DNA of 64,000 nt from Fervidobacterium nodosum Rt17-B1 (GTDB lineage Bacteria > Thermotogota > Thermotogae > Thermotogales > Fervidobacteriaceae). A program made the position numbers and the translations under genes. The first letter of the stretch is position 1. The number at the start of each line of letters is the position of its first letter. Location: the NCBI RefSeq assembly GCF_000017545.1, contig NC_009718.1:1240001-1304000 (forward strand), in the 5' to 3' direction. Positions 15,767-31,673 of the stretch are shown here, piece after piece. The notes under the pieces are model-generated. The model had not been told where the DNA came from. It worked only from the letters and a program-made list of their open reading frames with translations, and did no database searches.

Positions 15767-15787
15767 TTCCAAGCTTTAAAATCCCTT

Positions 15788-15809
15788 CAGTCCCCCGGAA
15801 GGGGGACTG
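15788..15809 (+). terminator. Intercistronic hairpin after the binding-protein gene
   Basis: A perfect nine-pair GC-rich stem (CAGTCCCCC / GGGGGACTG) closed by a GGAA loop, followed only by TTTAG. In binding-protein-first ABC operons such hairpins usually protect the upstream mRNA or partly terminate, giving more binding protein than permease. Here that is an inference. Confidence 0.75.
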
Positions 15810-15859
15810 TTTAGTTCAAAAATATAAACTAATTTTAAAAATTCAAAGGAGAGGTGAAG

Positions 15860-17242
15860 ATGACAAAACAAGTACTATTAACTATATTTGGAGTAATTGT
15901 TCCACTAATTGGTGTGTATTATTCTGTAAAAAAAGGTAAAAAACCACTTAATTACATATTTTTGTTAATTTCTCTCGCACTATACTACGGTGCTCTTTTC
16001 AATGTAAAATACCTTTATTTATTCAGTCCAAGATTCAACTTTATCATCGCTCCAATTGTTTATTTCTATTCATTCGACTTACCGGGTCTTGCAAAGTTCA
16101 TAAGAAATCGCTTGGCTCAAATTGTGCTCTTACTTGTAATCTACGTAACCGTGGTATTTTTCATTTTCTTAGCAATGCCTGGTGATTACACAACAAAATT
16201 CTTGGATCCAAAATTAATGAGAAACCCTGAGATGTACGAACGGATGAAACAACTCTTTGGAGTCGAAGACCCGTGGTATGTAAAATACTACAAACATATG
16301 AAAAACTTCTTCAATTTGGAAATGGGAATTTCGTTTAGTGAATATCCCAAAAAAGTTGAAGAAATTATAGCCGAAAGGTTGCCAAGAACACTATTTTTAT
16401 TCTTAGCAAGTTCAGTACTTTCCTTCTTGTTAGGATTTGACCTTGGAAAAAGAATAGCATGGAAACGTGGAGGAATAACCGATAAAGCGGCAACACTTGT
16501 CGGTATTATCTTTTGGACAATATTTACTCCATTTTACATGCTTATAATAATATGGCTCTTCGCAGTTACTTTGAAATGGTTCCCACTTTCCGGATTCGTT
16601 ACTCCATCAAAATGGTTTAATGCTCCATTCAGCGCACAAAACGTTTTCATAAGATTACTTTGGACAGAACTATTCTTACTCATCATGTGGATAATGGGTA
16701 TAGCCATAGCAAGTAAGTTAAAAACAATAAAAGCCAAAAAAACCGCGATATGGTCATCAGTAATAGCTGGAATTGCTTTGTCTATAATTTACTGGCTAAC
16801 AAACGGTATGGGAAGTTATGCTCTGGACATAATTTACCATTTAGCACTCCCAACAATCGCTCTTGTCACATTACACTTTGCAGGAGACATGTTAGTTATG
16901 AGAGACACCATGCTTGAAGTTATTAAAGAAGACTATATCACAACCGCACGCGCAAAAGGTTTGCCAGATAAAGTAATAAGAGACAAACATGCTGCGAGAA
17001 CGGCTTTACTACCGTTGATGACCAGCTTTGTCATAGGTCTTGCCTCAACTGTCAGTGGTGGAGTCATCACTGAAACTATGTTCTCTTGGAAAGGTATGGG
17101 ATTAACGTTGCTCGAAGCAACAACCGCGCAAGATACACCTCTTGCAATTGGATGTCTTGTCTTTACAGGTGTGCTCGTACTTTTTGCACACCTTATAGCG
17201 GATATACTGTACGCATTCTTAGATCCACGAATCAGATACTGA
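15860..17242 (+). CDS. ABC transporter permease, DppB/OppB type
   Basis: A 460-residue permease. The C-terminal two thirds match DppB, ending with the EAA-type cytoplasmic loop (DYITTARAKGLPDKVIRDKH). There are about 90 extra residues at the N-terminus with two or three added membrane helices (residues about 5-22, 31-47 and 57-75) before the usual first helix. It also has an added pair of helices before the binding-protein-dependent transport domain is completed. I start it at ATG 15860 after AAAGGAG; an in-frame GTG six bases earlier sits in the binding site. Confidence 0.9.
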   Translation: MTKQVLLTIFGVIVPLIGVYYSVKKGKKPLNYIFLLISLALYYGALFNVKYLYLFSPRFNFIIAPIVYFYSFDLPGLAKFIRNRLAQIVLLLVIYVTVVFFIFLAMPGDYTTKFLDPKLMRNPEMYERMKQLFGVEDPWYVKYYKHMKNFFNLEMGISFSEYPKKVEEIIAERLPRTLFLFLASSVLSFLLGFDLGKRIAWKRGGITDKAATLVGIIFWTIFTPFYMLIIIWLFAVTLKWFPLSGFVTPSKWFNAPFSAQNVFIRLLWTELFLLIMWIMGIAIASKLKTIKAKKTAIWSSVIAGIALSIIYWLTNGMGSYALDIIYHLALPTIALVTLHFAGDMLVMRDTMLEVIKEDYITTARAKGLPDKVIRDKHAARTALLPLMTSFVIGLASTVSGGVITETMFSWKGMGLTLLEATTAQDTPLAIGCLVFTGVLVLFAHLIADILYAFLDPRIRY

Positions 17243-17266
17243 TGGTAGCAAGAGAGGTGATATGAA

Positions 17267-19759
17267 ATGGCAAACAAAATTAATCAATCAGTGGAAAGCC
17301 AAAATAGAAAAGAATCAATTGCTAAGATAAAGTTTAAACTCTTTATCAAGAATTTTAAGAAAAATTGGGCATTATTTAAAGAGAGTAAAATGGGAATGTT
17401 TGGGTTATGGGTCATTATAGCGTTTGGTATATTCGGCGCATTATCACCAATTGTTTTAAGAGTGCTTGACCCAAGCATATACGACCCTGTCGTTGGCCTT
17501 GATTCGAGAATACTCTCAACAAAGTACATAACCGATCATCTCTCAACACAAAATTTGGTTAAGGGTATAGAAATCCCATCCGCTCAACTTTGGGTTTACT
17601 CTTTCATGGATAAAGGAGAAGCGTTTAAATCTTCAATGGAGAACCTCGTTAGAAATTCCCAGTACGAGATAATGACAACATACGCACCAGATAGCTTTAG
17701 ACACCTACTTGACACAATTGCAGATAGTTACATACCAACAAAGGAAAGATTGTATTTCCAAACAAGTGTTTCAGAACTCGTCGACCATGGCTTTATAAAA
17801 TTTTCGCCAATTTCCTCAGCAAAAGATATAGGCAACAGGGATAAATTTTCATTTTCTGATTTCTCTGAATTATTACAAAAAATTGATTATAAAACTCTTG
17901 CCATTGCGCTTTCAAACTATAAAGATTCTGATGAAGTATCACGCGTTATCCTTTGGTTCAGAAGCTTAAATAGAGACAAACCAGAAGTTGTTGAAGAATT
18001 CAATAATCTCCTCATGCAAACATATTCAAGCGAAGAAGTCGAAAATGCAGAAAAGCAAGTATTAGAAGTAGCTAAAAGTGTTGCAAATGTAAGTACAACT
18101 GGACAGTTGTATGTGCAATCTGATACACAACTTTCAGAAGTTATTCAAAATAACATAGTACCAGTTGAATCGTTAGTCTATGCTGCAGCATTTAACGTTA
18201 TTCCAGATTTACTTGTTCTATCAAAAGAAAATGGAAAAATTGAGGAACAGATAAGCAACAGTAAATTCTCTGTTTTACTCAATTATGCAAAATCGAAACT
18301 TTCAGATCTTTCAAATAAAGATATATACACCTCAGCGCTTTCAAAGGCTAATAGAACAATAAAAACAATTGAAGAAGAAATGAAATCCATAGGACTTGAA
18401 GTATCACACGAAAATACCGCTGAATTCCTCGAAATTTACGCAGGTATTGTTTTATCAAAAGTTTCAATAGATCTAAATCCTGAGTTAAGAGCAAAACTGG
18501 AAAATGAGCTTGGAGAATATTCCTCAAATGTTAGAAAGGGATTTGTCTATGAATTGAACAACGCATTTATAAAAATAGCTACAGCGAGGTCATTTATGGC
18601 TTCTTTACTTAACGACGAAAACATACCAGATAATTACGAAATGTTAGGTAGTAAAGTTATAAAAGTTCTTTCAGACCCAATAACATCCTTAATGGCTTAC
18701 GCATACCAAGGAACGAAAAAACTAGACAAAGTTATAGCAAATATTGAAAATTCTCAGCTTGATGATTTCAAACGTTTAGATATAGTTGAAAAATTAAAGA
18801 GCTATAAAGAGCCTGTTGAAGCTGCAAGATTTTTAATCGGTGAAGGTGATATAAACGATAATATTTACTATAGAATGTTAAATGAACACAAACAATACTT
18901 GAGTGATACATCCGCATGGGCAAATATTAAAGATATAAAAGATTACGAAAAGCCACAGAAAACAAATTGGTCGAAAGAATTTGCGGAAAAGAAACTTGTT
19001 GAAATATTTAACACACTTTCTATAACAAATAAAATAGGTGTTGGACATCCACTCCCACCAAGTAGATGGCATTGGCTTGGTACAGACCCAGTTGGTAGAG
19101 ATATCTTCGTCCAACTTATGGTTAGTACCCCGAGTGAATTTGTACTTGGTGTTCTTGCTGCTTTGATTACTGTCGTAATCGGTACAATTATAGGTACAGC
19201 AGCCGCATACTACGGTGGTGCTGTTGACATCATATTCATGCGAATAGCGGACCTTATGATGCTCTTCCCATCAACAGCATTCTTAATTGTTCTTTCCGGC
19301 TTCATGACGATGAATCTGTTCAAACTCGCAATTATTCTCGGTTTACTCGGTGGTTTTGGTGGCATAACACTTGTTCTCAAAGCTCAAGCTTTAACGATAA
19401 AAGTTAAGCCATATATTGATGCTGCGAGAGTATCTGGTGGAAGCCACGGATACATAATATTCAATCACATAATTCCAAATGTTATGCCACTTTCATTCCT
19501 ATACATGATGTTCAATGTAACTGGTGCTGTCTTCTCCGAAGCAGTGCTCAGCTTCTTTGGGCTTATGAAAGTTAGAATGTCATGGGGATTGATGATAAAT
19601 ACAGTTTGGAGTTCAGGATATCTCGGCTCTGGCAACATAGGTGCTTATTGGTGGATGTGGGTACCAGCAGGTGGAGCTATTACACTGCTGTGTGCAGCAT
19701 TCTACTTCCTCGGAAGAGGTCTTGAAGAAATCGTCAACCCAAGACTTAGAAAGAGGTGA
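17267..19759 (+). CDS. ABC permease, DppC type, with a roughly 515-residue insertion
   Basis: At 830 residues this is more than twice the usual DppC length of about 280-330. An N-terminal helix (about residues 46-66, GLWVIIAFGIFGALSPIVLR) is followed by a long, soluble, mainly helical segment to about residue 590. The standard domain then resumes with HWLGTDPVGRDIFVQLM, five membrane helices and an EAA loop (DAARVSGGSHGYIIFNHIIP). The insertion replaces the short extracytoplasmic loop between helices 1 and 2, so it should face the binding protein. No stop or frame change interrupts it. The flanking operon genes are normal. Confidence 0.88.
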   Translation: MANKINQSVESQNRKESIAKIKFKLFIKNFKKNWALFKESKMGMFGLWVIIAFGIFGALSPIVLRVLDPSIYDPVVGLDSRILSTKYITDHLSTQNLVKGIEIPSAQLWVYSFMDKGEAFKSSMENLVRNSQYEIMTTYAPDSFRHLLDTIADSYIPTKERLYFQTSVSELVDHGFIKFSPISSAKDIGNRDKFSFSDFSELLQKIDYKTLAIALSNYKDSDEVSRVILWFRSLNRDKPEVVEEFNNLLMQTYSSEEVENAEKQVLEVAKSVANVSTTGQLYVQSDTQLSEVIQNNIVPVESLVYAAAFNVIPDLLVLSKENGKIEEQISNSKFSVLLNYAKSKLSDLSNKDIYTSALSKANRTIKTIEEEMKSIGLEVSHENTAEFLEIYAGIVLSKVSIDLNPELRAKLENELGEYSSNVRKGFVYELNNAFIKIATARSFMASLLNDENIPDNYEMLGSKVIKVLSDPITSLMAYAYQGTKKLDKVIANIENSQLDDFKRLDIVEKLKSYKEPVEAARFLIGEGDINDNIYYRMLNEHKQYLSDTSAWANIKDIKDYEKPQKTNWSKEFAEKKLVEIFNTLSITNKIGVGHPLPPSRWHWLGTDPVGRDIFVQLMVSTPSEFVLGVLAALITVVIGTIIGTAAAYYGGAVDIIFMRIADLMMLFPSTAFLIVLSGFMTMNLFKLAIILGLLGGFGGITLVLKAQALTIKVKPYIDAARVSGGSHGYIIFNHIIPNVMPLSFLYMMFNVTGAVFSEAVLSFFGLMKVRMSWGLMINTVWSSGYLGSGNIGAYWWMWVPAGGAITLLCAAFYFLGRGLEEIVNPRLRKR

Positions 19760-19764
19760 TAACT

Positions 19765-20769
19765 GTGGCGATATTAAAAGTTGAAAATCTCAAAATGCAT
19801 TATAAAACAAAGAAAGGTTACGTTAAAGCCGTTGATGGTATCTCATTTGAATTGGAATCGGGCGAAAGCCTTGGTATAGTGGGTGAATCCGGTTGTGGTA
19901 AAACTTCTGTTTCAATGACCTTATTAAGAATACTACCTGAGAACGCTCAATTCATGGGCGGACATGTTTGGTTCAACGATAATGGAAAAATGGTTGACTT
20001 AGTTTCTCTCCAAGAAGACGAAATGAGACACTACAGATGGAAAGGCATATCGATGGTCTTCCAAGCAGCTATGAACTCACTAAATCCCGTTTACAAAGTC
20101 GGTGACCAAATTGTTGAAGCTATATTGAACCACTATCCTGATACACCCATTGATGAAGCAAAAGCAAAAGTCGCAAAACTTTTCGAGTTAGTTACACTCG
20201 ACCCTAAACGCATGGAACAATACCCACACCAATACAGCGGTGGTATGAAACAAAGGGCTGTTATAGCCTTGTCCCTTGCTTGTGACCCAAAAGTAATCAT
20301 TGCAGATGAACCTACAACAGCTCTTGATGTTATTGTACAAGATAAAATACTAAGAGAAATGAAGAAAATACAAAAAGAGCTAAACATGGCAATGATATAC
20401 ATCTCTCACGACATCGCAGTTATAGCAGAAGTCAGTGATAAAATCGCGGTAATGTACGCTGGCAAATTTGTCGAGCAAGCTGACTCTACGACTATATTCA
20501 AAAGACCAATGCATCCTTATACATTTTTACTCATGAACGCATTCCCAAGCCACGTTGGTGAAAAAAGAAAACTATTCACTATTCCAGGTGAACCACCTGA
20601 CTTATTGAATCCGCCAACTGGTTGTAGATTCGCCCCGAGATGTCCTTGGGCAACGGATAAATGTAGGACAACCGAACCTGAATACGTAGAAGTTGAGAAG
20701 GGCCATTTCCTTGCTTGCTGGCATCCACTTACAGAAGAGGTGAGACAGAATGAGTTCAAAAAACAATAG
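19765..20769 (+). CDS. ABC transporter ATPase, DppD/OppD type
   Basis: Walker A is GESGCGKTSVS, the signature motif YSGGMKQRAVIAL, Walker B KVIIADEPTTALD, and the C-terminal oligopeptide-ABC extension with its cysteine cluster (CRFAPRCPWATDKC) is present. Members of this subgroup often bind an iron-sulfur cluster there. I start it at GTG 19765 after AGAGGTG; an upstream in-frame GTG at 19756 lies inside that site and overlaps the permease stop. Confidence 0.93.
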   Translation: MAILKVENLKMHYKTKKGYVKAVDGISFELESGESLGIVGESGCGKTSVSMTLLRILPENAQFMGGHVWFNDNGKMVDLVSLQEDEMRHYRWKGISMVFQAAMNSLNPVYKVGDQIVEAILNHYPDTPIDEAKAKVAKLFELVTLDPKRMEQYPHQYSGGMKQRAVIALSLACDPKVIIADEPTTALDVIVQDKILREMKKIQKELNMAMIYISHDIAVIAEVSDKIAVMYAGKFVEQADSTTIFKRPMHPYTFLLMNAFPSHVGEKRKLFTIPGEPPDLLNPPTGCRFAPRCPWATDKCRTTEPEYVEVEKGHFLACWHPLTEEVRQNEFKKQ

Positions 20770-21751
20770 AAACAACGTATTACTTGAAGTCAAGAACTTA
20801 AAAAAGTTCTTTGCATCAGAGAGAGCTCTCTTTTCGAGAGCCAAGCACTTTGTCCATGCTGTTGATGACATCTCTTTTGAAATAAAAGAAGGAGAATCTT
20901 TAGGATTAGTTGGAGAATCTGGATGTGGTAAAACAACTACGGGTAGGATGGTCGTAAGGTTAGAACAACCAACGGAAGGAACAATAAAACTACTTGGAAA
21001 ACCAATTGAAGAATACGAAAGAATGGAATACCACGCACAAGTCCAAATGATATTCCAAGACCCATACGAATCACTAAATCCAAGAATGACAATATTCGAT
21101 ATAATTGCCGAACCTTTGAATATTCATAATGTTGGAACTTTAGAAGAAAGAGAAGAAAAAGTATCAAACTTGCTCCAAGAAGTTGGACTAACACCTCCAG
21201 AAAGCTTTTTGTGGAGATATCCGCACGAATTATCTGGTGGTCAAAGGCAAAGAGTCGCAATAGCACGTGCACTTATATTAAATCCAAAACTAATCGTCGC
21301 CGATGAGCCAACATCAATGCTTGACGTTTCTGTAAGAACAGGTGTTATGCACCTCATGATGGAACTCCAACAAAAGCACAATATGAGCTATTTGTATATC
21401 ACACACGACCTTGCTGTTGCAAGATACATGGTTAACAGAATCGCTGTTATGTACCTTGGTAAAATAGTTGAACTTGCTGAAACGGAAGAACTGCTTCACA
21501 ATCCTATGCACCCGTATACAAGAGCACTCATGGACGCTGTTCCAGTTCCAGATCCAGAATATAAAAGAGCTGAACCAAACATAATTGGAAACATAAGCGT
21601 TCCAATAGACCCACCACCAATTTGTAGATTTTACGATAGATGCCCATTCAAAGAAGAACGTTGTAAAACTGACCCGCATCCAGAATTAAAAGAAGTAGCA
21701 CCAGGACATTTTGTTGCTTGCTATCCTGTACAAGAAGGAAAACTTAGATAA
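20750..21751 (+). CDS. ABC transporter ATPase, DppF/OppF type
   Basis: A 333-residue ATPase partner of the preceding gene, which it overlaps by 20 bases. Walker A is GESGCGKTTTG, signature LSGGQRQRVAIARAL, Walker B KLIVADEPTSMLD, and a C-terminal CRFYDRCPFKEERC cluster. The start ATG follows AGAAGAGGTG. It is the last gene of the importer operon and is followed by a strong terminator. Confidence 0.93.
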   Translation: MSSKNNRNNVLLEVKNLKKFFASERALFSRAKHFVHAVDDISFEIKEGESLGLVGESGCGKTTTGRMVVRLEQPTEGTIKLLGKPIEEYERMEYHAQVQMIFQDPYESLNPRMTIFDIIAEPLNIHNVGTLEEREEKVSNLLQEVGLTPPESFLWRYPHELSGGQRQRVAIARALILNPKLIVADEPTSMLDVSVRTGVMHLMMELQQKHNMSYLYITHDLAVARYMVNRIAVMYLGKIVELAETEELLHNPMHPYTRALMDAVPVPDPEYKRAEPNIIGNISVPIDPPPICRFYDRCPFKEERCKTDPHPELKEVAPGHFVACYPVQEGKLR

Positions 21752-21815: not shown

Positions 21816-22274
21816 TTAAAAAGCCATTTTCCTTGCAAATTCCGCGGCAGCATTTAAATCAGACTCATCTGGTCTATCCGGATTGACTCCGCCTTTCTTT
21901 CCAAAAATCAATCCAAAATAAGAACCAGGGCAATTAAATTCACCAATCAAGTTAAAATTCTTTTTTTCTAAAAGTCTTATCATACTTTTGTGATACTTCT
22001 TCCCATCCAAATCCGCTGAAGTTGAAAATAAAAATACCTTCTTCCCATCGCCATCTTTGACCTTTTTAATTAACCTCTTTAATGATCTGTGCATACCAAA
22101 AGCATAAATACCTGAACCCAAACCAATAATATCGTATTTTAAAATCTCTTCAGGGCTTATTTCTTTAGGACCTTTAACTTCACATTTCAAAACCTCAGCC
22201 ATCTTATTAGCAATTTTTAAAGTATTTCCTTGATGTTTAGACACACAAATTATAATCGCATTCTTCCCTTCCAT
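21816..22274 (-). CDS. Flavodoxin-family protein
   Basis: A 152-residue flavodoxin-like protein. The N-terminal phosphate-binding region of the FMN site reads VSKHQGNTLKIANKMAEVL, and IIGLGSGIYAFGMHRSLKRL is the second flavin loop. The C-terminus (GEFNCPGSYFGLIFGKKGGV) resembles flavodoxin-domain proteins that act as small electron carriers or reductases. The partner is unknown. Preceded by a GGGGGGATT site and flanked by terminators on both sides, it is probably a single-gene unit. Confidence 0.85.
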   Translation of the reverse strand: MEGKNAIIICVSKHQGNTLKIANKMAEVLKCEVKGPKEISPEEILKYDIIGLGSGIYAFGMHRSLKRLIKKVKDGDGKKVFLFSTSADLDGKKYHKSMIRLLEKKNFNLIGEFNCPGSYFGLIFGKKGGVNPDRPDESDLNAAAEFARKMAF

Positions 22275-22350
22275 CAGAATCCCCCCTCTTCATTTTTTAA
22301 AAAAGCTTAAAAAGTCTAATAATTATTTTACCACAATTTGAAGAAAATAA

Positions 22351-22383
22351 AAAAGAGATTGTGCACAAGGCACAATCTCTTTT
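22351..22383 (-). terminator. Terminator of the alcohol dehydrogenase gene
   Basis: A perfect 14-pair inverted repeat (AAAAGAGATTGTGC / GCACAATCTCTTTT) around a five-base loop. On the minus strand it lies 35-67 bases after the ADH stop and is followed by T-rich sequence. Confidence 0.9.
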
Positions 22384-22417
22384 CATTAAAATCACTATGA
22401 GTTCTTACATTGATTTC

Positions 22418-23626
22418 TCACATTCTTCTCAAAGAATTCTTGTATATTCTTGCTATAACTTCCCTTTCAGCCTTTATAGGTGCCACGCTGAGCAATAAAT
22501 CAAGAGAAGGAGTTGTAAGCGCAAGATTGGTAAGCTTTTCAATATCTGAGTCTTTAAATCCTTCATCCTCAAGTTTTTGTGTAACTCCCATGGCAAATAA
22601 CCAGTCCTCTATACCTTTTGCAATTTTCTCAGCTTCCGCAGGATTACCTTTTAAGCCAGGGACAATAGGTTCGTACACTTCAGCAAGAATTTCTGCAGTT
22701 GATGGGTAAATTTCCTTAACAACAGCTGGTAAAAGCATAGCAAGTCCCAAACCGTGAGCAAGCTCAGGTTTAACAGCACTTAAAGGATGTTCTAAAGCAT
22801 GTGTGAAATGCAAAAGTCCATTATCAAAAGATATACCTGCTATCGCCGAAGCATAGAGTAAATAGTATCTTGCATTTAAATCGTTCGGATTACTCAAAGC
22901 TTGTGGCAGATATGTCGCAATCAATCTAACAGTTTCTTTTGCAAGGAGTATCGAATATGGATTCCTTGCCAGTGTTGTTGCTGCCTCTGTTATATGATTA
23001 AGTGCATCAATAGACGTATATAGCGTTTGCTTATACGGTAGAGTAACCATAAGTTGTGGGTCGTCTATGGCGAATGTTGGATAAATAACATCGTACGCAA
23101 TAGCTGGTTTATATTCCTTCTCCAATATCGACGCAACGGCGAATCTATCAACCTCTGTACCAGTACCATGAGTTGTATTGATGGCAATTATAGGTTTTGC
23201 CCTCTCTGGTATAAACTTTCCTTCGTAAAGTTCTCGCGCATTCTTATCTTTATGCTCAAGTAACACAGCTACACTTTTTGCCGTATCAATAGGACTTCCC
23301 CCACCTATACCGATAACCGCTTCTGCTCCAAAATCTCTTCCAATTTTCGTTGCTTCATCAATTTGATCCGTTGTCGGATTTGGCGTTACCTTATCGTATA
23401 AAACATATCCAATGTTCCTTTCCTTAAGCGCCTTTTCCACTTTGTCCCATGCCCCTGTGACCTTATACGCAACAGGGTCAGAAACTATCAAAACTTTATC
23501 TTTTTTACTAGAAGAAAGCCACTCGGCAATATCTTTTATTTTCTCGATCGCACCAACACCAAAGTAACACGTTGTCTTACACCTAAGCTCAAAAACATTG
23601 TAAATGTTGACTTTTCTTTCCCACAT
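22418..23626 (-). CDS. Iron-containing alcohol dehydrogenase
   Basis: A 402-residue group III dehydrogenase. The NAD(P)-binding GGGSPIDTAKS motif is at about residues 109-119, and the metal-binding region is represented by SIDALNHITEAA and LLHFTHALEHPLSA. It probably reduces acetaldehyde or another aldehyde to recycle NAD(P)H during fermentation; substrate and cofactor preference are not readable. A Rex-like operator lies 61 bases upstream of the start. ATG start with a GAGGATGG site. Confidence 0.92.
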   Translation of the reverse strand: MWERKVNIYNVFELRCKTTCYFGVGAIEKIKDIAEWLSSSKKDKVLIVSDPVAYKVTGAWDKVEKALKERNIGYVLYDKVTPNPTTDQIDEATKIGRDFGAEAVIGIGGGSPIDTAKSVAVLLEHKDKNARELYEGKFIPERAKPIIAINTTHGTGTEVDRFAVASILEKEYKPAIAYDVIYPTFAIDDPQLMVTLPYKQTLYTSIDALNHITEAATTLARNPYSILLAKETVRLIATYLPQALSNPNDLNARYYLLYASAIAGISFDNGLLHFTHALEHPLSAVKPELAHGLGLAMLLPAVVKEIYPSTAEILAEVYEPIVPGLKGNPAEAEKIAKGIEDWLFAMGVTQKLEDEGFKDSDIEKLTNLALTTPSLDLLLSVAPIKAEREVIARIYKNSLRRM

Positions 23627-23686
23627 ACTTCTTCCATCCTCGATAGTATTTTAATAATCGTAAATTCCTGAAATCACTCTAGCTAT

Positions 23687-23704
23687 TTGTGAAAAAAATC
23701 ACTT
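23687..23704 (-). promoter_or_regulatory. Rex-like redox operator upstream of the ADH gene
   Basis: TTGTGA-AAAAAA-TCACTT matches ten of the twelve fixed positions of the Rex consensus TTGTGA-N6-TCACAA. It lies just downstream of a TATAAT element (minus strand, 23713-23718), over the expected transcription start, where a repressor would block initiation. Rex releases DNA when NADH is high, and alcohol dehydrogenases are common Rex targets. Binding here is inferred. Confidence 0.7.
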
Positions 23705-23806
23705 ACAACAATATTATAACTTAGGCAAAATTAATTTGTGTTAATACGTGAATAATTTTACGAAACAACAATGTAAAATATAAAATAACCAAAGCATAAA
23801 AAATAA

Positions 23807-23829
23807 GAAGTGCCCACCTAGGGCACTTC
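23807..23829 (-). terminator. Terminator of the lactate dehydrogenase gene
   Basis: A nine-pair stem (GAAGTGCCC / GGGCACTTC) followed on the minus strand by TTATTTTTTATG, about 30 bases after the ldh stop codon. Confidence 0.88.
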
Positions 23830-23860
23830 AGATGATTGGGTAATTTGTGAATAATATTAA

Positions 23861-24793
23861 TTAAAAAATCTTACTTTTTATCTCCTCAATAGATTTTTGT
23901 ATAACACTTCTTGAGTATTGAAATTTCTTTTCTTCGTCTTCGCTCAAGTTCAATCTTAAAACTTTTTCCACTCCACTTTTACCGATAACTGAAGGATAAC
24001 CGATATATATACCATCAACCAAAACAGATATCGTCCATACTCTTTTTTCGTTTCGCCACATACTTGAAATTAATCGTGCGGTTACAGCACCAATAGCGAG
24101 GTTAGTCGCTCCTTTTCGTTCAATTATTTCATATGCTGCTTTTCTAACTTTTTCCTCAATTATTTTAAGATTTAAACAAAAGCCTTGTTCAGAATTATTT
24201 TCACACAACTTACAGTAATCTATTAACTTTAACCCGCCTATGGTTGCATTGGAGAATGGTACAAATTCGCTATCTCCATGTTCACCGATAACGTAAGCAT
24301 GTATACTCGCCGGAGATATACCACATTGCTGGGAAAGTAAAACTCTCAAACGAGCGGTATCTAAAGTGGTTCCTGTACCAATAACTCTTTGCGATGGTAA
24401 ATTAGTAAATTGCCAAATAAAATATGTCAGAACATCTACTGGGTTTGTCACATTTATAATTATACTATTTGGTGAATATTTGACTATATCTTCAGATATT
24501 TCTTTCATTATACGCACATTATCTCCAAGAAGTTCCAGCCTTGTCTCACCAGGTCTTTGACTTCTACCAGCGGTTATAACTATGAAATCGCTATCTTCAA
24601 TATCTTTTGAGTCTCCAGCCCAAATATTGCATGATTTAAACATAGAAGATGAATGGAGCAAATCTAGAGCTTCACCTTCTGCCCTTTTCTTATCTATATC
24701 TATCAAAACCATTTCATCAACAAGACTTGTATGCAAAAGCGAAAAAGCAATACTAACTCCAACTCTCCCTGCTCCATAAATTGAAACTTTCAT
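23861..24793 (-). CDS. ldh: L-lactate dehydrogenase
   Basis: A 310-residue member of the lactate/malate dehydrogenase family. The dinucleotide-binding site is GAGRVGVSIAFSL and the active-site histidine lies in GEHGDSEF. The substrate-specificity loop reads SQRPGETRLELL; glutamine in this position favours lactate, whereas malate dehydrogenases carry arginine (ARKPG). It would reduce pyruvate to lactate and regenerate NAD+. It has its own promoter with a palindrome over the start site and is divergent from the GH13 gene. Confidence 0.93.
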   Translation of the reverse strand: MKVSIYGAGRVGVSIAFSLLHTSLVDEMVLIDIDKKRAEGEALDLLHSSSMFKSCNIWAGDSKDIEDSDFIVITAGRSQRPGETRLELLGDNVRIMKEISEDIVKYSPNSIIINVTNPVDVLTYFIWQFTNLPSQRVIGTGTTLDTARLRVLLSQQCGISPASIHAYVIGEHGDSEFVPFSNATIGGLKLIDYCKLCENNSEQGFCLNLKIIEEKVRKAAYEIIERKGATNLAIGAVTARLISSMWRNEKRVWTISVLVDGIYIGYPSVIGKSGVEKVLRLNLSEDEEKKFQYSRSVIQKSIEEIKSKIF

Positions 24794-24949: not shown

Positions 24950-26893
24950 ATGAAAAAAAACACCGCGAATTTTAGCTTCATTTTTATAGTGTTAATGTTA
25001 ATTTTCTCACTTTCATCTTGCTTTTACACAATTAGGGAAGAAGAAAGTTTCGTAAAAAACATCAAAGCATCCTACAATACTGACACAAACGAATTGCGTA
25101 TTAATTGGGACGTTGGAACTTTAAATACCAACACTGATATTAAATATTATGTGCTCAAGAAACTGAAAAATGAAAATCAATATCGTAAAATAGGGGAAGC
25201 CAACGGAAAATTCTTTGGATTGAATAACTTTTCAGGAAAAGACTTCTGGAACATTGAAAAAATCGGAATAAAAGCTATTGTAAATGGAAAAGAAAGCGAA
25301 ATCATCGAAATTTCAAAGGAAAGTATAGATCTTATATCTTTGGACGTTCCACTCACTTCTTCAACGATGTACACATTGTTTATCCGCTCTTTCTATGATA
25401 CAAATGGAGATGGAGTGGGAGATTTTAATGGGGTCTTACAGAAAGTTAATTATCTAAAATCTCTTGGAATTGATACTGTTTGGTTTTTGCCATTTAATAA
25501 AAGCAAATCCTACCACGGATACGATGTGGAAGATTATTACGATGCGGAACCAGATTATGGAACATTGGAAGATTTAGACAACATGATAAAAGTTTTAAAT
25601 GAAAACGGAATAAAAGTTGTAATGGATTTAGTTATTAACCACACATCTGATACTCATCCTTGGTTCTTAGATGCGATTGAAAAAACAAAAAACTCTCCAT
25701 ATTGGAATTACTACATAATGAGTCTGCAACAACCATCAAATACTAATCACTGGCATTACAAAATAAATTCAAAAGGGCAGAAAGTATGGTACTTCGGATT
25801 ATTTGATTCATCGATGCCTGATTTGAATTACGCTAATCCAGAAGTTTTGAACGAAGTCAAAAAAATAATAGATTTCTGGATAACAATGGGAGTGGATGGT
25901 TTCAGATTGGACGCAGCAAAGCACTACTATGGATGGGATTGGAATGATGGAATAGACTCTTCAACAAGTGTTGCGAAGGCAATAGAAAATTACGTTAGAA
26001 CTAAACTTGGAAATGACGCTATCGTTGTGAGTGAAGTTTACGATGGTTCTCCTGATGTACTTACTAAATTCACACCCATGCCTGTTTTTAATTTTACGTT
26101 TATGTACAATATAAGACAAAACTACGAAGAAAGAGATTATTTACTTCACGATTCAATTAATTGGATAAATCCTTCATCGTACTACTTAAACACCTATCAT
26201 TTCCCTTTTATCGACAGCCATGATTTAAACAGATCTATATCTGAGCTTGTTGATTCCAAATATTCTGGAGATGTTCAATCGGCTACAAAGCAGTATTTAC
26301 TTTTGAATGCGTTACTACTTTCACTAAATGGTATGCCAACGATATACTACGGTGACGAAATAGGCCTACGTGGTTGGAAATGGAACTCATATCCATGGGA
26401 CTTACCCGTTCGCGAACCGATGCAATGGTATGCAACACAAAATGGCAGTGGTCAAACATATTGGACAAAGAGCTTTTACACAGGTATTATAAATGGCAAC
26501 GCCAAAAACGATGGAGCAATTTACGACGATCCAAACGATGGCATATCCGTTGAAGAACAAGAAAGTGGATATACAATTTTGAATTTCTTTAGAGAATTCA
26601 TAAATTTAAGAAAAACATATCCAGCATTAGCATTTGGAAATGCAACAATTGAAAGAGATTGGAAAAACCTGTACGTTTTGAAAAAGTCTTATGGTTCACA
26701 GGAAGTGTTTGTGTTAATAAACCTTGACCCAACATATTCAAATAATTATGAAATACCAGCAGGATACACGTGGATTTGGTATGCTTTCTTTAACGAAAGC
26801 TCTTTTGAATTTAGTCCAAAAAACATTCAGATTTTTCAAAACACACAATGGATCATAAACTCAAGGCAAGTTTATGTTTTCGTTAAGCAGTAA
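24950..26893 (+). CDS. Cell-surface GH13 alpha-amylase-type lipoprotein
   Basis: A 647-residue lipoprotein: signal peptide and lipobox FSLSSC (Cys about residue 24). An N-terminal beta-sandwich-like domain (about 35-125) precedes a GH13 barrel. Conserved regions are visible: MDLVINHTSD (region I), GFRLDAAKH with the nucleophile Asp near residue 320, VVSEVYD with the acid/base Glu near 361, and FIDSHDLNRS with the transition-state Asp near 424. The DTNGDGVGDFNGV loop suggests calcium binding. It should cleave alpha-1,4-glucans outside the cytoplasmic membrane; the product pattern is unknown. It begins a cluster of surface glucan-binding proteins. Confidence 0.93.
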   Translation: MKKNTANFSFIFIVLMLIFSLSSCFYTIREEESFVKNIKASYNTDTNELRINWDVGTLNTNTDIKYYVLKKLKNENQYRKIGEANGKFFGLNNFSGKDFWNIEKIGIKAIVNGKESEIIEISKESIDLISLDVPLTSSTMYTLFIRSFYDTNGDGVGDFNGVLQKVNYLKSLGIDTVWFLPFNKSKSYHGYDVEDYYDAEPDYGTLEDLDNMIKVLNENGIKVVMDLVINHTSDTHPWFLDAIEKTKNSPYWNYYIMSLQQPSNTNHWHYKINSKGQKVWYFGLFDSSMPDLNYANPEVLNEVKKIIDFWITMGVDGFRLDAAKHYYGWDWNDGIDSSTSVAKAIENYVRTKLGNDAIVVSEVYDGSPDVLTKFTPMPVFNFTFMYNIRQNYEERDYLLHDSINWINPSSYYLNTYHFPFIDSHDLNRSISELVDSKYSGDVQSATKQYLLLNALLLSLNGMPTIYYGDEIGLRGWKWNSYPWDLPVREPMQWYATQNGSGQTYWTKSFYTGIINGNAKNDGAIYDDPNDGISVEEQESGYTILNFFREFINLRKTYPALAFGNATIERDWKNLYVLKKSYGSQEVFVLINLDPTYSNNYEIPAGYTWIWYAFFNESSFEFSPKNIQIFQNTQWIINSRQVYVFVKQ

Positions 26894-26901
26894 AATTTCT
26901 T

Positions 26902-26914
26902 TGGAACGTTTCCA
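26902..26914 (+). promoter_or_regulatory. Palindromic candidate operator between the GH13 and CBM9-like genes
   Basis: TGGAA-CGT-TTCCA is an exact inverted repeat with a three-base centre, starting eight bases after the GH13 stop and about 33 bases upstream of a -10 hexamer. LacI-family sugar regulators use sites with a central CG and similar arms, but those usually have even symmetry. No regulator gene is adjacent. Confidence 0.45.
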
Positions 26915-26946
26915 TGATGAGTTATTTATATAATAACAAAAAGTGG

Positions 26947-26952
26947 TATAAT
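26947..26952 (+). promoter_or_regulatory. Candidate -10 element for the glucan-binding genes
   Basis: TATAAT 44 bases before the ATG at 26997. No convincing -35 is present at 16-18 bases, so activation or a weak promoter is possible. Confidence 0.5.
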
Positions 26953-26996
26953 TTTTATGCTCAAGTTCTACACTTCACAGCAAGGAGGGGTAAGGT

Positions 26997-27671
26997 ATGA
27001 AAAAGGCACTTTTTATAACTCTATCGGTATTACTAGTTGTATTCTTGACAAACTGTGCATTATTTGAAAAACCACCGCTATTGAAAACTATAACGGTTGA
27101 TGCGACATTAACAGATTGGGAAAATTATGTTCATAATGACGCAACAGACTCACAATGGGGATCTAACAACGAAATCTACAAAGCTGGTATACTCTTCGAC
27201 GCAAGTAATCTTTATATTGCCGGAGAATATACAAAGGAAGGATACAACAATTTTATGGTAATAGTTGACTTGTCTGGTGTAAATGGCGCGGCTGACACTT
27301 CAAAACATCCTTGGAACAGGCAATACAAATTTGAAAAAGGTGATGTCGATTTCGTTCTTGAAACATGGGGTGATAATGATAATTACGGAGCATGGAGATT
27401 CACAACAGATGCAGCCACAGTTACAGGAACACTTGCTTCCACAGAAGTCGAGGGAAGAAAAAGATTCGAGTTTGCAATTCCTCTTGAAAAACTTGGGGTA
27501 ACAGATCCAAATAAACTTTCGGTAAAAGCGGTATTTGTACTCACCGGAAGTGCTGATTCAGGCAAACAGTGGGCAGGAGATTTCTATCCAGATCAAGGAT
27601 TCGAAACAGGTAACGGTGGATACACTGCTCCAGTGGTTATAAAGAGAGTAATAGAAAATCCAAAGAAGTAA
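26997..27671 (+). CDS. Lipoprotein with a CBM9/DOMON-like carbohydrate-binding domain
   Basis: A 224-residue lipoprotein (lipobox LTNC, Cys about residue 18). The mature part is one beta-sandwich domain that opens ITVDATLTDWENYVH and continues with AGILFDASNLYIAGEY. This is the pattern of CBM9-like and glucodextranase-type DOMON domains, which bind sugars in a surface cleft. It has no catalytic motif. The likely role is binding glucan or maltodextrin at the cell surface beside the GH13 enzyme. A strong AAGGAGGGG site precedes the ATG, and a hairpin follows the gene. Confidence 0.72.
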   Translation: MKKALFITLSVLLVVFLTNCALFEKPPLLKTITVDATLTDWENYVHNDATDSQWGSNNEIYKAGILFDASNLYIAGEYTKEGYNNFMVIVDLSGVNGAADTSKHPWNRQYKFEKGDVDFVLETWGDNDNYGAWRFTTDAATVTGTLASTEVEGRKRFEFAIPLEKLGVTDPNKLSVKAVFVLTGSADSGKQWAGDFYPDQGFETGNGGYTAPVVIKRVIENPKK

Positions 27672-27694
27672 AAACAATTGATATCAATAATATC

Positions 27695-27714
27695 AAGGGG
27701 GCTTTGTGCCCCCT
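27695..27714 (+). terminator. Hairpin after the CBM9-like gene
   Basis: AAGGGGGC / GCCCCCTT stem with a short TTTGT loop, followed by ATTTATAG. The weak T-tract suggests partial termination, with reduced read-through to the next three genes. Confidence 0.75.
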
Positions 27715-27763
27715 TATTTATAGGGAATTTCAAACTTTATAACTTTTTAGGAGGTGAATTTGG

Positions 27764-28495
27764 TTGAAAAGCAAAATTTACTTTGCCATTTTGCTGAGTT
27801 TGTCTTTTGTCTTACTTTTTTCCACAGGTTGTATGAAATTACTCAATATCCAAATTCCAGATGGAGTTTACGTTGTTGGCGATTGGAACAGCTGGATTCC
27901 TACCGAGAAGGATCAGATGGCATTTGATTCAGTAGAAGGATGCTACAAATTTGAACTACCAACCGCTTCGATGACATTTAAAGCAAGCAGATCAGGAACT
28001 GAATACTCAATCGGATGGTATAAGGTTATATATAAATCTGGTGGAGTAACGAAAGTCTCTGCCTCCATTCCTGTTTGGAAGGAAAACTTAAATTCAGATT
28101 CTTTAACTATATACGCAAGCCCAACAATTATGATTAACGGACAAGCGGTAGGTGTTGGAGATACCGAGAAATTTCAAACGAAAAAAAGCAAATGGTACGT
28201 TGGTGGAAAATTCAATAGCTGGAACTTAAGCAACGGTGAAATGACTTGGGATGATTCTAAAAAAGTTTTTAAATATACATTAACCAACTTCAATGCAAAT
28301 GAAAAAAGTTACCAGTTCAAAGTAACAAGAAACATGGGTGGTTGGAAACCTTGGGAATTCAATTACGACGGCAAAAAATACGATGCAGGATTTGACAATA
28401 ACACACTATCTCTAGAAAGTACGGGTCAAGTAGACATAGAAATAACTTTTAATCCAAAGTTTTCACTCATTGAAGCAATAGCAACTCCAAAGTAA
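27764..28495 (+). CDS. Lipoprotein with two starch-binding-like modules
   Basis: A 243-residue lipoprotein (lipobox STGC, Cys about residue 23). Two units are visible, one beginning DGVYVVGDWNSWIPTEKDQM (about residues 32-51) and one KWYVGGKFNSWNLSNGEMTW (about 145-164). The G-x-[WF]-N-x-W turn followed by a folded-strand pattern is typical of CBM20/CBM48/SusE-type starch-binding modules. No enzyme motif is present. It would act as a surface glucan-binding accessory. Start TTG at 27764, seven bases after GGAGGTG. Confidence 0.7.
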   Translation: MKSKIYFAILLSLSFVLLFSTGCMKLLNIQIPDGVYVVGDWNSWIPTEKDQMAFDSVEGCYKFELPTASMTFKASRSGTEYSIGWYKVIYKSGGVTKVSASIPVWKENLNSDSLTIYASPTIMINGQAVGVGDTEKFQTKKSKWYVGGKFNSWNLSNGEMTWDDSKKVFKYTLTNFNANEKSYQFKVTRNMGGWKPWEFNYDGKKYDAGFDNNTLSLESTGQVDIEITFNPKFSLIEAIATPK

Positions 28496-28516
28496 TATAC
28501 AAGTGAGGTGAAGATC

Positions 28517-29683
28517 GTGAAACATAAACATGCCAAATTTTTTAATATCTTGATTTTAATCATCTTCTCATTCACCACTTTGTTTGCTCTTCAAATAAAT
28601 TATTCCACAAAATTTTCAATGAGCTTTGATTTTTCAGAAGAACAATTAAAAACATATTTTGGCTCGGAGTTTCGAATGGCAGGTAGTTCTTTTGGTTCAG
28701 GATACGATTTATCGTTTAACCTCAATGGAACAAACTTAGAATCTGCAAAGCTTGTTTTAAAATTTGACACATTAAAATTATCTTTGTACGATAACACTAT
28801 TTTTGGTTCCACAAATGACCCAATTGAAACTTACAAAATTGATAGTGGTAAAAACGGTATAGAGATAGAATATTCTTCTTTCAAATTTGTGCTTTTTAAC
28901 AATTTTGATTTGATGTACGTTTCCTCAAATTTATCAGATTACTACATTGTTATAGGTAAGCGGGGTAAGATCTTTGATACAGCATTATCTTATTCATCAA
29001 AGTTTTTAAATAACGATTTAAAAGCTGAAGTTGCCGTAAAAGATATAGCAAATTTTGACGTAAAAAATGCACTCTTATTTGGCCAACTTGCAGACGGAAG
29101 TTACAATTGGGGGATAACATATAAATTCATAGGTTCTGACGAAAAGCAGAATGCTGTAAATTTGTGGTATAAGTTCGGGAACATACCTTCATTCAATACA
29201 TATTTAAATACTCAATTTGGAATAGATAATCTTACACAAGATTTACTAAGCAATGCAGAAGTTGGGATTGATGTTAATTTGAATCAGTTCAATTTAAGCT
29301 TGAAAAAGATGAATTTAACAACCTTTTCTGGATTAATGCCAACTCAGTGGGGAGAGTTTTCAATATCCTTTGGCACGAAATTTTCTTTAGCTGAATTTAA
29401 CGGAAGCTTGAAATATACTTTTGGTAAACCAATTCATAGTTCTGTCAACACTATAGGTGAAATATTCTATGGTGAGATTGGGAGGAACCTTGGAAATATT
29501 TCACTCTTTGCAAAGTACCAGAAGATTATAGGTTACTATGAAGAGAAAGATTTTCTTTACTCCGAAGTTAAGTTTACTGGTTTTTCTTTGGGTGAAGTCA
29601 AATTCTGGATCGGTAATGGTGAATTTGATAAGAATAACCCATTTACCCCTATTCTTGGCGTAGAATTGAATCTCTGGTGGTAA
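28517..29683 (+). CDS. Secreted protein with beta-barrel character
   Basis: About 388 residues with a signal peptide (FFNILILIIFSFTTLFA) and no lipobox. The mature part consists of alternating polar and hydrophobic strands with few long helices, and it ends GVELNLWW. A terminal aromatic after an alternating strand is the usual outer-membrane barrel signal. It may be a toga-embedded porin for sugar passage. I recognise no family. Start GTG at 28517, six bases after GAGGTG; an upstream in-frame GTG is inside that site. It lies between two glucan-binding genes. Confidence 0.6.
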   Translation: MKHKHAKFFNILILIIFSFTTLFALQINYSTKFSMSFDFSEEQLKTYFGSEFRMAGSSFGSGYDLSFNLNGTNLESAKLVLKFDTLKLSLYDNTIFGSTNDPIETYKIDSGKNGIEIEYSSFKFVLFNNFDLMYVSSNLSDYYIVIGKRGKIFDTALSYSSKFLNNDLKAEVAVKDIANFDVKNALLFGQLADGSYNWGITYKFIGSDEKQNAVNLWYKFGNIPSFNTYLNTQFGIDNLTQDLLSNAEVGIDVNLNQFNLSLKKMNLTTFSGLMPTQWGEFSISFGTKFSLAEFNGSLKYTFGKPIHSSVNTIGEIFYGEIGRNLGNISLFAKYQKIIGYYEEKDFLYSEVKFTGFSLGEVKFWIGNGEFDKNNPFTPILGVELNLWW

Positions 29684-29726
29684 ATCCATATTTAATTATT
29701 AGCAAAATAATCAGGAGGTGCTGTGG

Positions 29727-31673
29727 ATGAAAGGTTATAAGCTACTCATAGTTTTAGTTATTTCAGTTTTGCTAATATCTGTTACTTCAATCTTTGCGGG
29801 TGTAAAGTTTGTAAATGGCAAAGTTGTCTTTACTTTCAAAGCCGAAGCCAACGTTGTATATCTGGCAGGTAACTTTAACAATTGGAATCCAACCGCTTGG
29901 CCTATGAAACTTACCGATGGTGTTTGGACTTACGAAGTTGAACTTAAACCTGGTAGTTATCAGTATAAATACGTAATAGATGGCAAAACTTGGAAAGAAG
30001 ATCCTGAAGCTCCTGCGTATGTGGACGACGGGTTTGGTGGAAAAAATGGAGCATTCACATTGACAGCTGATGGAAAAATCCTTGGTGAACAAGGTACACA
30101 ACAATCCCAAGGCAAGAAATACGAATTGAATGAAAAACGAGAGAACACAATATTCGTTGACCCAGATGGATACGTTGTGATAAGGATAAATGCACCAGGT
30201 GCCAAGCATGTTTTCATAGCAGGTTCATTCAATAATTGGAACGATAAAGATACCGAATGTTATTATGTCGATGCTGGTTGGTGGGAAGCAGTTTTAGAAT
30301 TGTCACCTGGAATTTACGAATATAAGTTTATAATCGATGGAAATTGGACAGTAGATCCAAATGCGTTTGGGTATACAGATGATGGTTTTGGTGGAAAAAA
30401 TGCTGTCCTCGAAGTTGCGAAAGAAGGCGGAAAATTAATCGTTAGAGCTCCTCAAAATGCTACAAAATCTGAAGGAGCAAAGGAGGAAAAAACACAAGAG
30501 CAAGTAACTACAGCTGAAACAGTAAAACCAGGATTATCTATAGATGGAAATAAAGTTATCTTCGCCGTTAAAAAAGAAAATGCCCAAGAAGCTTATCTTG
30601 CAGGTTCATTCAACAGTTGGAATCCAAAAGCATTGAAAATGCAACTTGTAAACGGATACTGGGTTGCCAGCTTAGTATTACAACCAGGAACTTACGAGTA
30701 TAAATACGTCTTTTTAATTGGTGGAAACTATGTATGGGAAGAAGATCCAAATGCACCAGGTTATAAATCAGACGGTTACGGCGGAAAAAATGGAATTTTC
30801 AAACTTGTCCAAAAAGATGGAAAGATTTCTATAGAAGAACTACAGCAAACAGCGGGTGGTTTACCCGTAAAAGGAGAATACAAATTCAAATACGAATTCA
30901 AAACCGACAGCACAAAATTCTTAGTTGGCAGTGCATTTTCTAATACACTAACATTATTATTCCAACCAAACGAGGAAATTTCTCTTGGAATTACTTACGA
31001 TGGTGCAAATATATCAAATGCAAATGTCAAATTATACAAAGATAACTACGGTTTTGAATTATTCTACAAATCTCCTTTTGCTTATGTATCAGATGATTCG
31101 CTTTATTCAATTGGAAAAAATACAGGTGCTCTTTTTAAATACTCTCTTGGCGATTATTTACTTATAACAGGTGTGGGATACGAAAGTGGAAAACTCCCAT
31201 GGATAGTAGGTATAGATGGCAAGATGTATAAATTATACGTGTCGCAAGACTATTTCTCAAGTGATGTAGCTATTGTTGGAGAAATTTCACTACCAGAGAC
31301 ATTCGGACTTTCAATTTGCGGAATGTACAGTTTGGATCAAACATTCTTTGTAAGTACCACATTTTCACTTAACGCATTTGGGATTTATGCATCATTTGAT
31401 GGAACAAACATATACGGTAAGATAAGAACAACATTAGGAAAAGATACAATTTCACTAGATGGAAGATACGATATAAGTTATTCAAGTATAAATGTATCAG
31501 CAACCTACGCAACGGAAGGAATAGAATATTACATTGGTACAGACCTTTCAAATGTAGATGCAAAAGTAACATTTATTATGAAAGATAAAAAGTTATCACT
31601 TGGACTAAAAACTGATATTAGTGATTTCATTAATAGAACTTATTTATCTCTCTCCGGAGAAGTTAATTTCTAA
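29727..31673 (+). CDS. Triple CBM48-like modules fused to a beta-barrel-like domain
   Basis: A 648-residue secreted protein with a signal peptide. Three AMPK/CBM48-type glycogen-binding modules are present at about residues 30-112, 160-237 and 285-365. Each has the same landmarks: [VF][YF][LI]AG[NS]FN[NS]WN, then a YEYK[YF]-type strand, then DP[EN]A..Y..DG[FY]GGKN. A Q/E/T-rich linker separates modules 2 and 3. The remaining 280 residues are strand-rich without cysteine or enzyme motifs and end LSLSGEVNF, with the C-terminal Phe expected of an outer-membrane barrel. Start ATG 29727 after GGAGGTG. It is the last gene of the glucan cluster. Confidence 0.8.
   Translation: MKGYKLLIVLVISVLLISVTSIFAGVKFVNGKVVFTFKAEANVVYLAGNFNNWNPTAWPMKLTDGVWTYEVELKPGSYQYKYVIDGKTWKEDPEAPAYVDDGFGGKNGAFTLTADGKILGEQGTQQSQGKKYELNEKRENTIFVDPDGYVVIRINAPGAKHVFIAGSFNNWNDKDTECYYVDAGWWEAVLELSPGIYEYKFIIDGNWTVDPNAFGYTDDGFGGKNAVLEVAKEGGKLIVRAPQNATKSEGAKEEKTQEQVTTAETVKPGLSIDGNKVIFAVKKENAQEAYLAGSFNSWNPKALKMQLVNGYWVASLVLQPGTYEYKYVFLIGGNYVWEEDPNAPGYKSDGYGGKNGIFKLVQKDGKISIEELQQTAGGLPVKGEYKFKYEFKTDSTKFLVGSAFSNTLTLLFQPNEEISLGITYDGANISNANVKLYKDNYGFELFYKSPFAYVSDDSLYSIGKNTGALFKYSLGDYLLITGVGYESGKLPWIVGIDGKMYKLYVSQDYFSSDVAIVGEISLPETFGLSICGMYSLDQTFFVSTTFSLNAFGIYASFDGTNIYGKIRTTLGKDTISLDGRYDISYSSINVSATYATEGIEYYIGTDLSNVDAKVTFIMKDKKLSLGLKTDISDFINRTYLSLSGEVNF

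Follow-up and report, generated by a model that had tools for sequence, protein, structure and literature searches.

The region analysed here is a 64,000-nucleotide window (C1:1240001-1304000) of the Fervidobacterium nodosum genome, which comprises a single contig of 1,948,941 bp with Thermotogales gene content. Five consecutive plus-strand open reading frames (ORFs), designated P1 to P5, were confirmed at window positions 24950-31673; all coordinates below are window positions unless a contig or locus is named. An initial annotation, made from the DNA alone, had interpreted these ORFs as a set of exported proteins for glucan capture, cleavage and entry across the toga. Our analysis supports a system by which Thermotogota capture and cleave alpha-glucans at the outer membrane (toga) and take them in, a reading to which we assign a probability of roughly 70%. 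Growth of F. nodosum on starch has been recorded (PMC7795431 table).

The gaps P1-P2, P2-P3, P3-P4 and P4-P5 are 103, 92, 12 and 34 bp, respectively. Promoter and terminator scans in F. nodosum gave results near chance and no clear evidence of an operon. The features of the cluster are as follows, with the supporting evidence in brackets.

24950-26893, plus strand: P1, GH13 alpha-amylase lipoprotein, orthologue of Thermotoga AmyA (TM1840) (PF00128, 5m99, identity, lipobox)
26997-27671, plus strand: P2, lipoprotein with one candidate DOMON/CBM9-like domain (lipobox Cys20; weak profile match)
27764-28495, plus strand: P3, lipoprotein with two CBM48-like modules (conserved residues; profile match to P5 CBM48)
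28508-29683, plus strand: P4, predicted outer-membrane beta-barrel with signal peptide and C-terminus NLWW (model; fold matches)
29718-31673, plus strand: P5, signal peptide, three CBM48 modules and a C-terminal predicted beta-barrel (Pfam, conservation, model, fold matches)
29802-30068, plus strand: P5 CBM48 module 1, residues 29-117 (AMPK1_CBM/CBM48; W56, K84, W92 and N110 invariant in 17 sequences)
30144-30446, plus strand: P5 CBM48 module 2, residues 143-243 (AMPK beta2 glycogen-binding domain, E-value 1.5e-10; W174, K203, W210 and N228 invariant)
30531-30842, plus strand: P5 CBM48 module 3, residues 272-375 (Pfam CBM48-type profile; W301, K329, W340 and N358 invariant)
30867-31670, plus strand: P5 C-terminal predicted beta-barrel, residues 384-651, with invariant terminal Phe (model; fold matches; P4 profile)

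Amylase and starch-binding proteins

P1 matched the Pfam profile PF00128 with an E-value of 7.7e-72 and carried the GH13 motifs FRLDAAKH, SEVYD and FIDSHD together with the lipobox LSSC. Its best match in the PDB was the Thermotoga-type amylase 5m99 (545 bits), with SusG scoring far lower (163 bits), and it shared 52-53% identity with the Thermotoga copies. Judged by orthology, GH13 motifs and lipobox, P1 is a Thermotoga AmyA-type GH13 lipoprotein amylase, in agreement with its first description as a GH13 lipoprotein. Compared with SusG as a surface lipoprotein, P1 has both the GH13 domain and the lipobox; a toga location is reported for the Thermotoga orthologue only, TM1840 (AmyA) (PMC3387000).

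P5 was matched by AMPK1_CBM (PF16561) over three stretches (E-value 1.4e-36, 125 bits) and by PF02922 (87.5 bits). In an alignment with AMPK beta, the equivalents of the Trp, Lys, Trp and Asn of AMPK-type glycogen-binding domains were invariant in all three modules across the 17 sequences; we take them to correspond to AMPK W100, K126, W133 and N150. In AMPK, these residues have roles in glycogen binding. With a profile score above the curated cut-off and conserved glucan-binding residues, P5 is by sequence a CBM48 protein, and the three CBM48-like modules originally proposed for it were recovered. Modules 1 and 2 shared 52-62% identity with modules of GH57 amylopullulanases from the same order and of derivatives of these enzymes that lack the GH57 domain, and in one draft genome (locus L148) a P5-like gene adjoins a GH57 amylopullulanase.

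CBM48 modules were also observed outside the cluster proteins. A Fervidobacterium protein with two CBM48 modules and Glucodextran_C (L141:5532-7523, corresponding to F. nodosum C1 about 1763532-1765523, and L142:5750-7747) carries the amylopullulanase modules without the GH57 domain, the full enzyme being found in Thermosipho-like relatives. In one genome (G016, L127:15978-16727), an extra short exported protein with two CBM48 modules, 62% identical to P5, lies near the cluster.

The lipobox Cys23 of P3, as well as N151, W153, K186 and W194, was invariant in 17 sequences. Single-sequence matches of P3 to CBM48 remained below the cut-off, but its profile matched the P5 CBM48 profile with an E-value of 2.8e-11; the two starch-binding-like modules initially assigned to P3 thus find support at the profile level and not in single-sequence searches. 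A comparison of P3 with SusF was non-significant (E-value 0.055).

P2 had been described as a CBM9/DOMON-like lipoprotein. The lipoprotein part of this description is borne out by lipobox Cys20, invariant in 13 relatives. No Pfam family, CBM9 and DOMON included, passed the curated cut-off for P2, and PDB sequence searches, including one with the P2 profile, returned nothing significant. The P2 profile modestly matched the region beside the glucodextranase-type C-terminal module of GH57 enzymes (E-value 1.9e-4), and the DOMON/CBM9-like character of the domain is best treated as a lead. The P2 domain is doubled in Thermotoga (E-value 1.4e-11), and P2 relatives carry additional starch-binding-like domains.

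Predicted outer-membrane barrels

AlphaFold2 models of P4 and P5 were built from alignments of four sequences each. The P4 model comprised about 24 strands with a predicted local distance difference test score (pLDDT) of 72 and a predicted template modelling score (pTM) of 0.56. Each of its top 50 PDB fold matches was an outer-membrane barrel (porin, usher, siderophore receptor or AlgE), with template modelling scores (TM-scores) of 0.2-0.5. The P5 C-terminus, a region of 270 residues, was modelled as all-beta with about 20 strands and a pLDDT mostly of 70-88, at an overall pTM of 0.40; it matched porins, VDAC and Tom40, with target-normalised TM-scores of 0.53 (VDAC) and 0.46 (Tom40). A terminal aromatic residue is conserved in both, W in P4 and F in P5. 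P4 and the P5 C-terminus are accordingly listed as outer-membrane barrels predicted with low-to-moderate confidence, and the models agree with the barrel-like ends that the initial annotation had noticed in both proteins.

None of the 17 members of the P4 group matched a Pfam family, porin or otherwise, and a PDB sequence search with the P4 profile gave nothing significant. The P5 C-terminus was likewise uncovered by any significant Pfam match. P4 is predicted to represent a new barrel family. As candidate relatives of both proteins, we examined the ompA1-ompB locus of a genome that we take to be that of T. maritima MSB8; its best E-value against the P4 and P5 profiles was 0.18, which is not a significant match to OmpB.

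Profile-profile comparison of P4 with the P5 barrel yielded an E-value of 5.8e-7 (9.3e-6 in a repeat). The reversed profile gave 0.29 and 20 block-shuffled profiles gave 0.056-0.8; rotated profiles, in which long stretches stay unshuffled, fell in between, up to 2e-5. A pure composition effect is unlikely, since the real pair outscores the reversed and shuffled controls, and the two barrels are probably old paralogues. The claim that each part of the cluster comes from a different protein family is therefore too strong on two counts, as P3 and P5 share the CBM48 fold and the P4 and P5 barrels look homologous.

Conservation of the cluster in Thermotogota

Conservation was assessed in 45 genomes of the order, and gene maps were drawn for 16 of the cluster-bearing ones. 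P3, P4 and full-length P5 each occurred in the same 21 genomes, with P2 recognised in 19. In nearly all clusters of the 16 mapped genomes (Fervidobacteriaceae and Thermotoga), P2-P3-P4-P5 were contiguous and co-oriented, P2 being replaced or unrecognised in two, although the identity of P4 among relatives drops as low as 26%. The GH13 gene adjoins the cluster in about 13 of the 21 genomes and is unlinked or absent in the remainder, for example unlinked in several Thermosipho-like genomes.

In the T. maritima MSB8-type genome, the genes form the run amyA-P2-P3-P4-P5-pullulanase with gaps of 12, 4, −11, 15 and 17 bp, which adjoins divergent maltose-region genes. This six-gene run agrees with TM1840-TM1845 beside the mal2 maltose ATP-binding cassette (ABC) transporter (region TM1839-TM1845; PMC2246101 Table 1).

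When the phylum was searched with the P4 profile, diverged relatives emerged from three genera that belong to a different family of the class. Four loci of this second lineage were mapped, in which P3-P4-P5 are contiguous and a starch-binding-like lipoprotein stands in the place of P2; P5 consists of one CBM48 module and a barrel-like end. A GH13 amylase of a different type is present in two of the four loci, interrupted in one. In G081 (L167:12538-14078), the cluster GH13 is split into two ORFs, and stop codons follow in the frame of the first, which suggests a frameshift or a pseudogene. As the GH13 differs in the second lineage while the core is retained, the stable part appears to consist of the binding proteins and barrels, the amylase being exchangeable. 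Synteny in relatives had been suggested as a check on the initial annotation, and the P2-P5 order proved to be conserved in Fervidobacterium and Thermotoga and, in diverged form, in this second lineage of the class.

Family f2, a part of the order, is without the module, and G025 (L180:7854-8606) has lost P2-P4 and retains of P5 only a fragment of the barrel, with no CBM48 modules. The module is accordingly accessory and not essential.

Neighbouring uptake genes

The initial annotation did not include the flanking uptake genes, namely an Opp-type transporter in Fervidobacterium and malEFG2 with a pullulanase in Thermotoga. In F. nodosum, the former is located as follows.

13946-21751, plus strand: Opp-type ABC transporter (SBP_bac_5, two permeases, two ATPases), probable partner of the cluster (Pfam; gene maps)

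In four other Fervidobacterium genomes (L123, L124, L125 and L136), this transporter immediately precedes P1 in the same orientation. Most of the solved structures nearest to it carry a peptide-binding label. Opp-family transporters of Thermotogales are often oligosaccharide carriers, so a role as maltodextrin importer is plausible. Among the Fervidobacterium maps, only that of F. nodosum has three minus-strand genes (21816-24793) splitting the transporter from P1; by eye, these are flavodoxin-, iron alcohol dehydrogenase- and lactate dehydrogenase-like. The OppC-type permease (17267-19759) has 830 aa, with several hundred extra residues ahead of BPD_transp_1 (639-829), and this N-terminal extension is kept in other Fervidobacterium. 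The downstream pullulanase of Thermotoga has a signal peptide without a lipobox.

Proposed function and alternatives

In the proposed mechanism, AmyA (P1) would cut starch or glycogen at the envelope surface, where P2 and P3 would bind the glucan, and the P4 and P5 barrels would pass malto-oligosaccharides. With their most likely position on the periplasmic side, the CBM48 arms of P5 may keep glucan close to the pore and supply it to debranching enzymes or pullulanase in the periplasm and to an ABC transporter, which in Thermotoga would be Mal2; in Fervidobacterium, the inner-membrane step would probably be taken by the neighbouring Opp-type transporter. Passage would be diffusive, sharpened by binding, because no TonB-dependent receptor barrel was found in the genome. 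An N-terminal domain ahead of an even-stranded C-terminal barrel sits in the periplasm; since the CBM48 arms precede the barrel, they would be periplasmic if its strand number is even. The surface placement first given to these modules is at odds with this topology. The overall reading of glucan capture, cleavage and entry draws support from the conserved starch-family module, the predicted barrels and the toga location of TM1840, while the passage of glucan is a step that we infer.

More tentatively, the cluster may represent an independent class of outer-membrane polysaccharide importers in Thermotogota that operate without TonB. Its two barrels would be paralogues from a new family, one of them bearing a triple CBM48 arm to catch glycan, and would act together with starch-binding lipoproteins and a surface amylase; the amylase would be interchangeable, and the fixed core would be made up of the barrels and the binding proteins.

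Several observations weigh against a glucan capture and entry system. Three genomes (G023, G025 and G027) hold the GH13 without an intact P2-P5 set, and some genomes with P2-P5 lack an adjacent GH13; the GH13 and P2-P5 do not strictly need each other, because each occurs without the other in some relatives. The barrel models also count here, given their four-sequence alignments, pTM values of 0.56 and 0.40 and low TM-scores.

The even-stranded barrel topology, with about 20 strands predicted for P5, and the lipobox-free signal peptide of the Thermotoga pullulanase would suit a function in the periplasm, where the P5 arms and some of the lipoproteins would hold dextrins or stored glucan, surface capture being minor. 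However, the strand count of P5 is uncertain, and the product of the first gene, AmyA, is a reported toga protein (PMC3387000); we regard this explanation as rather unlikely.

Alternatively, the cluster might serve binding and cleavage only, the lipoproteins and P5 arms tethering the cell or the amylase to starch granules, the barrels acting as anchors and entry proceeding via OmpB, an abundant general porin (PMC3387000). That P4 and P5 match neither the OmpB nor the maltoporin families is consistent with such a role, as is the faster evolution of the P5 barrel relative to its CBM48 arms (18-44% identity for the barrel alone versus 38-59% for the whole protein). Yet both lineages retain two full-size barrels alongside the binding proteins, and P4, without a binding domain, would have nothing to hold as an anchor, which makes this explanation quite improbable. 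That the genes are merely adjacent and share no common job, as the unlinked GH13 of several Thermosipho-like genomes might suggest, is very improbable given a gene order that two families of the order and a further lineage of the class retain at low sequence identity.

Few toga proteins of Thermotogota have been named, among them OmpA, OmpB, an amylase and a xylanase (PMC3387000). For work on polysaccharide uptake through the toga, the cluster narrows the search in T. maritima to six genes, TM1840-TM1845, which include those of the predicted barrels.

Comparison with known systems

Thermotoga AmyA is the P1 orthologue, and the published work on it concerns the enzyme; TM1841-TM1844 are entered simply as ORFs without names (PMC2246101). 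The searched literature, with subscription papers lying outside the search, yielded no publication that gives these four genes a function. The surface-amylase part is thus already known, while its four neighbours appear unstudied.

The likely logic of a passive outer-membrane channel feeding an ABC transporter is shared with enterobacterial LamB/MalE/MalS. P4 and P5 show no match to LamB or any Pfam porin, and LamB has no starch-binding modules. OmpB (TM0476), the toga porin of T. maritima, is an outer-membrane barrel from the same phylum whose C-terminus is aromatic, as in P4 and P5; the P4 and P5 profiles did not match it significantly. CBM48 modules also occur in GH57 amylopullulanases and in AMPK beta, where they belong to an enzyme and a kinase subunit; in P5, they are joined to a predicted beta-barrel. 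Such a combination of starch-binding arm and predicted outer-membrane pore in one protein is unusual.

A parallel in working outline is the Sus system of Bacteroides thetaiotaomicron (SusCDEFG), with its surface GH13 lipoprotein, small starch-binding lipoproteins and outer-membrane barrel. Across the whole F. nodosum genome, neither SusC (PF00593) nor SusD (PF07980) was matched, whereas the control genomes matched the former and the Bacteroides control the latter; the absence of SusC/D homologues stated in the initial annotation therefore extends to the entire genome. The barrels of the Thermotogota cluster come from unrelated families, and its binding modules are of CBM48 type, one set being fused to a barrel. 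This suggests that the Sus logic of a surface amylase, starch-binding lipoproteins and a barrel can be built without SusC and SusD. The cluster resembles Sus in its working outline and is not Sus.

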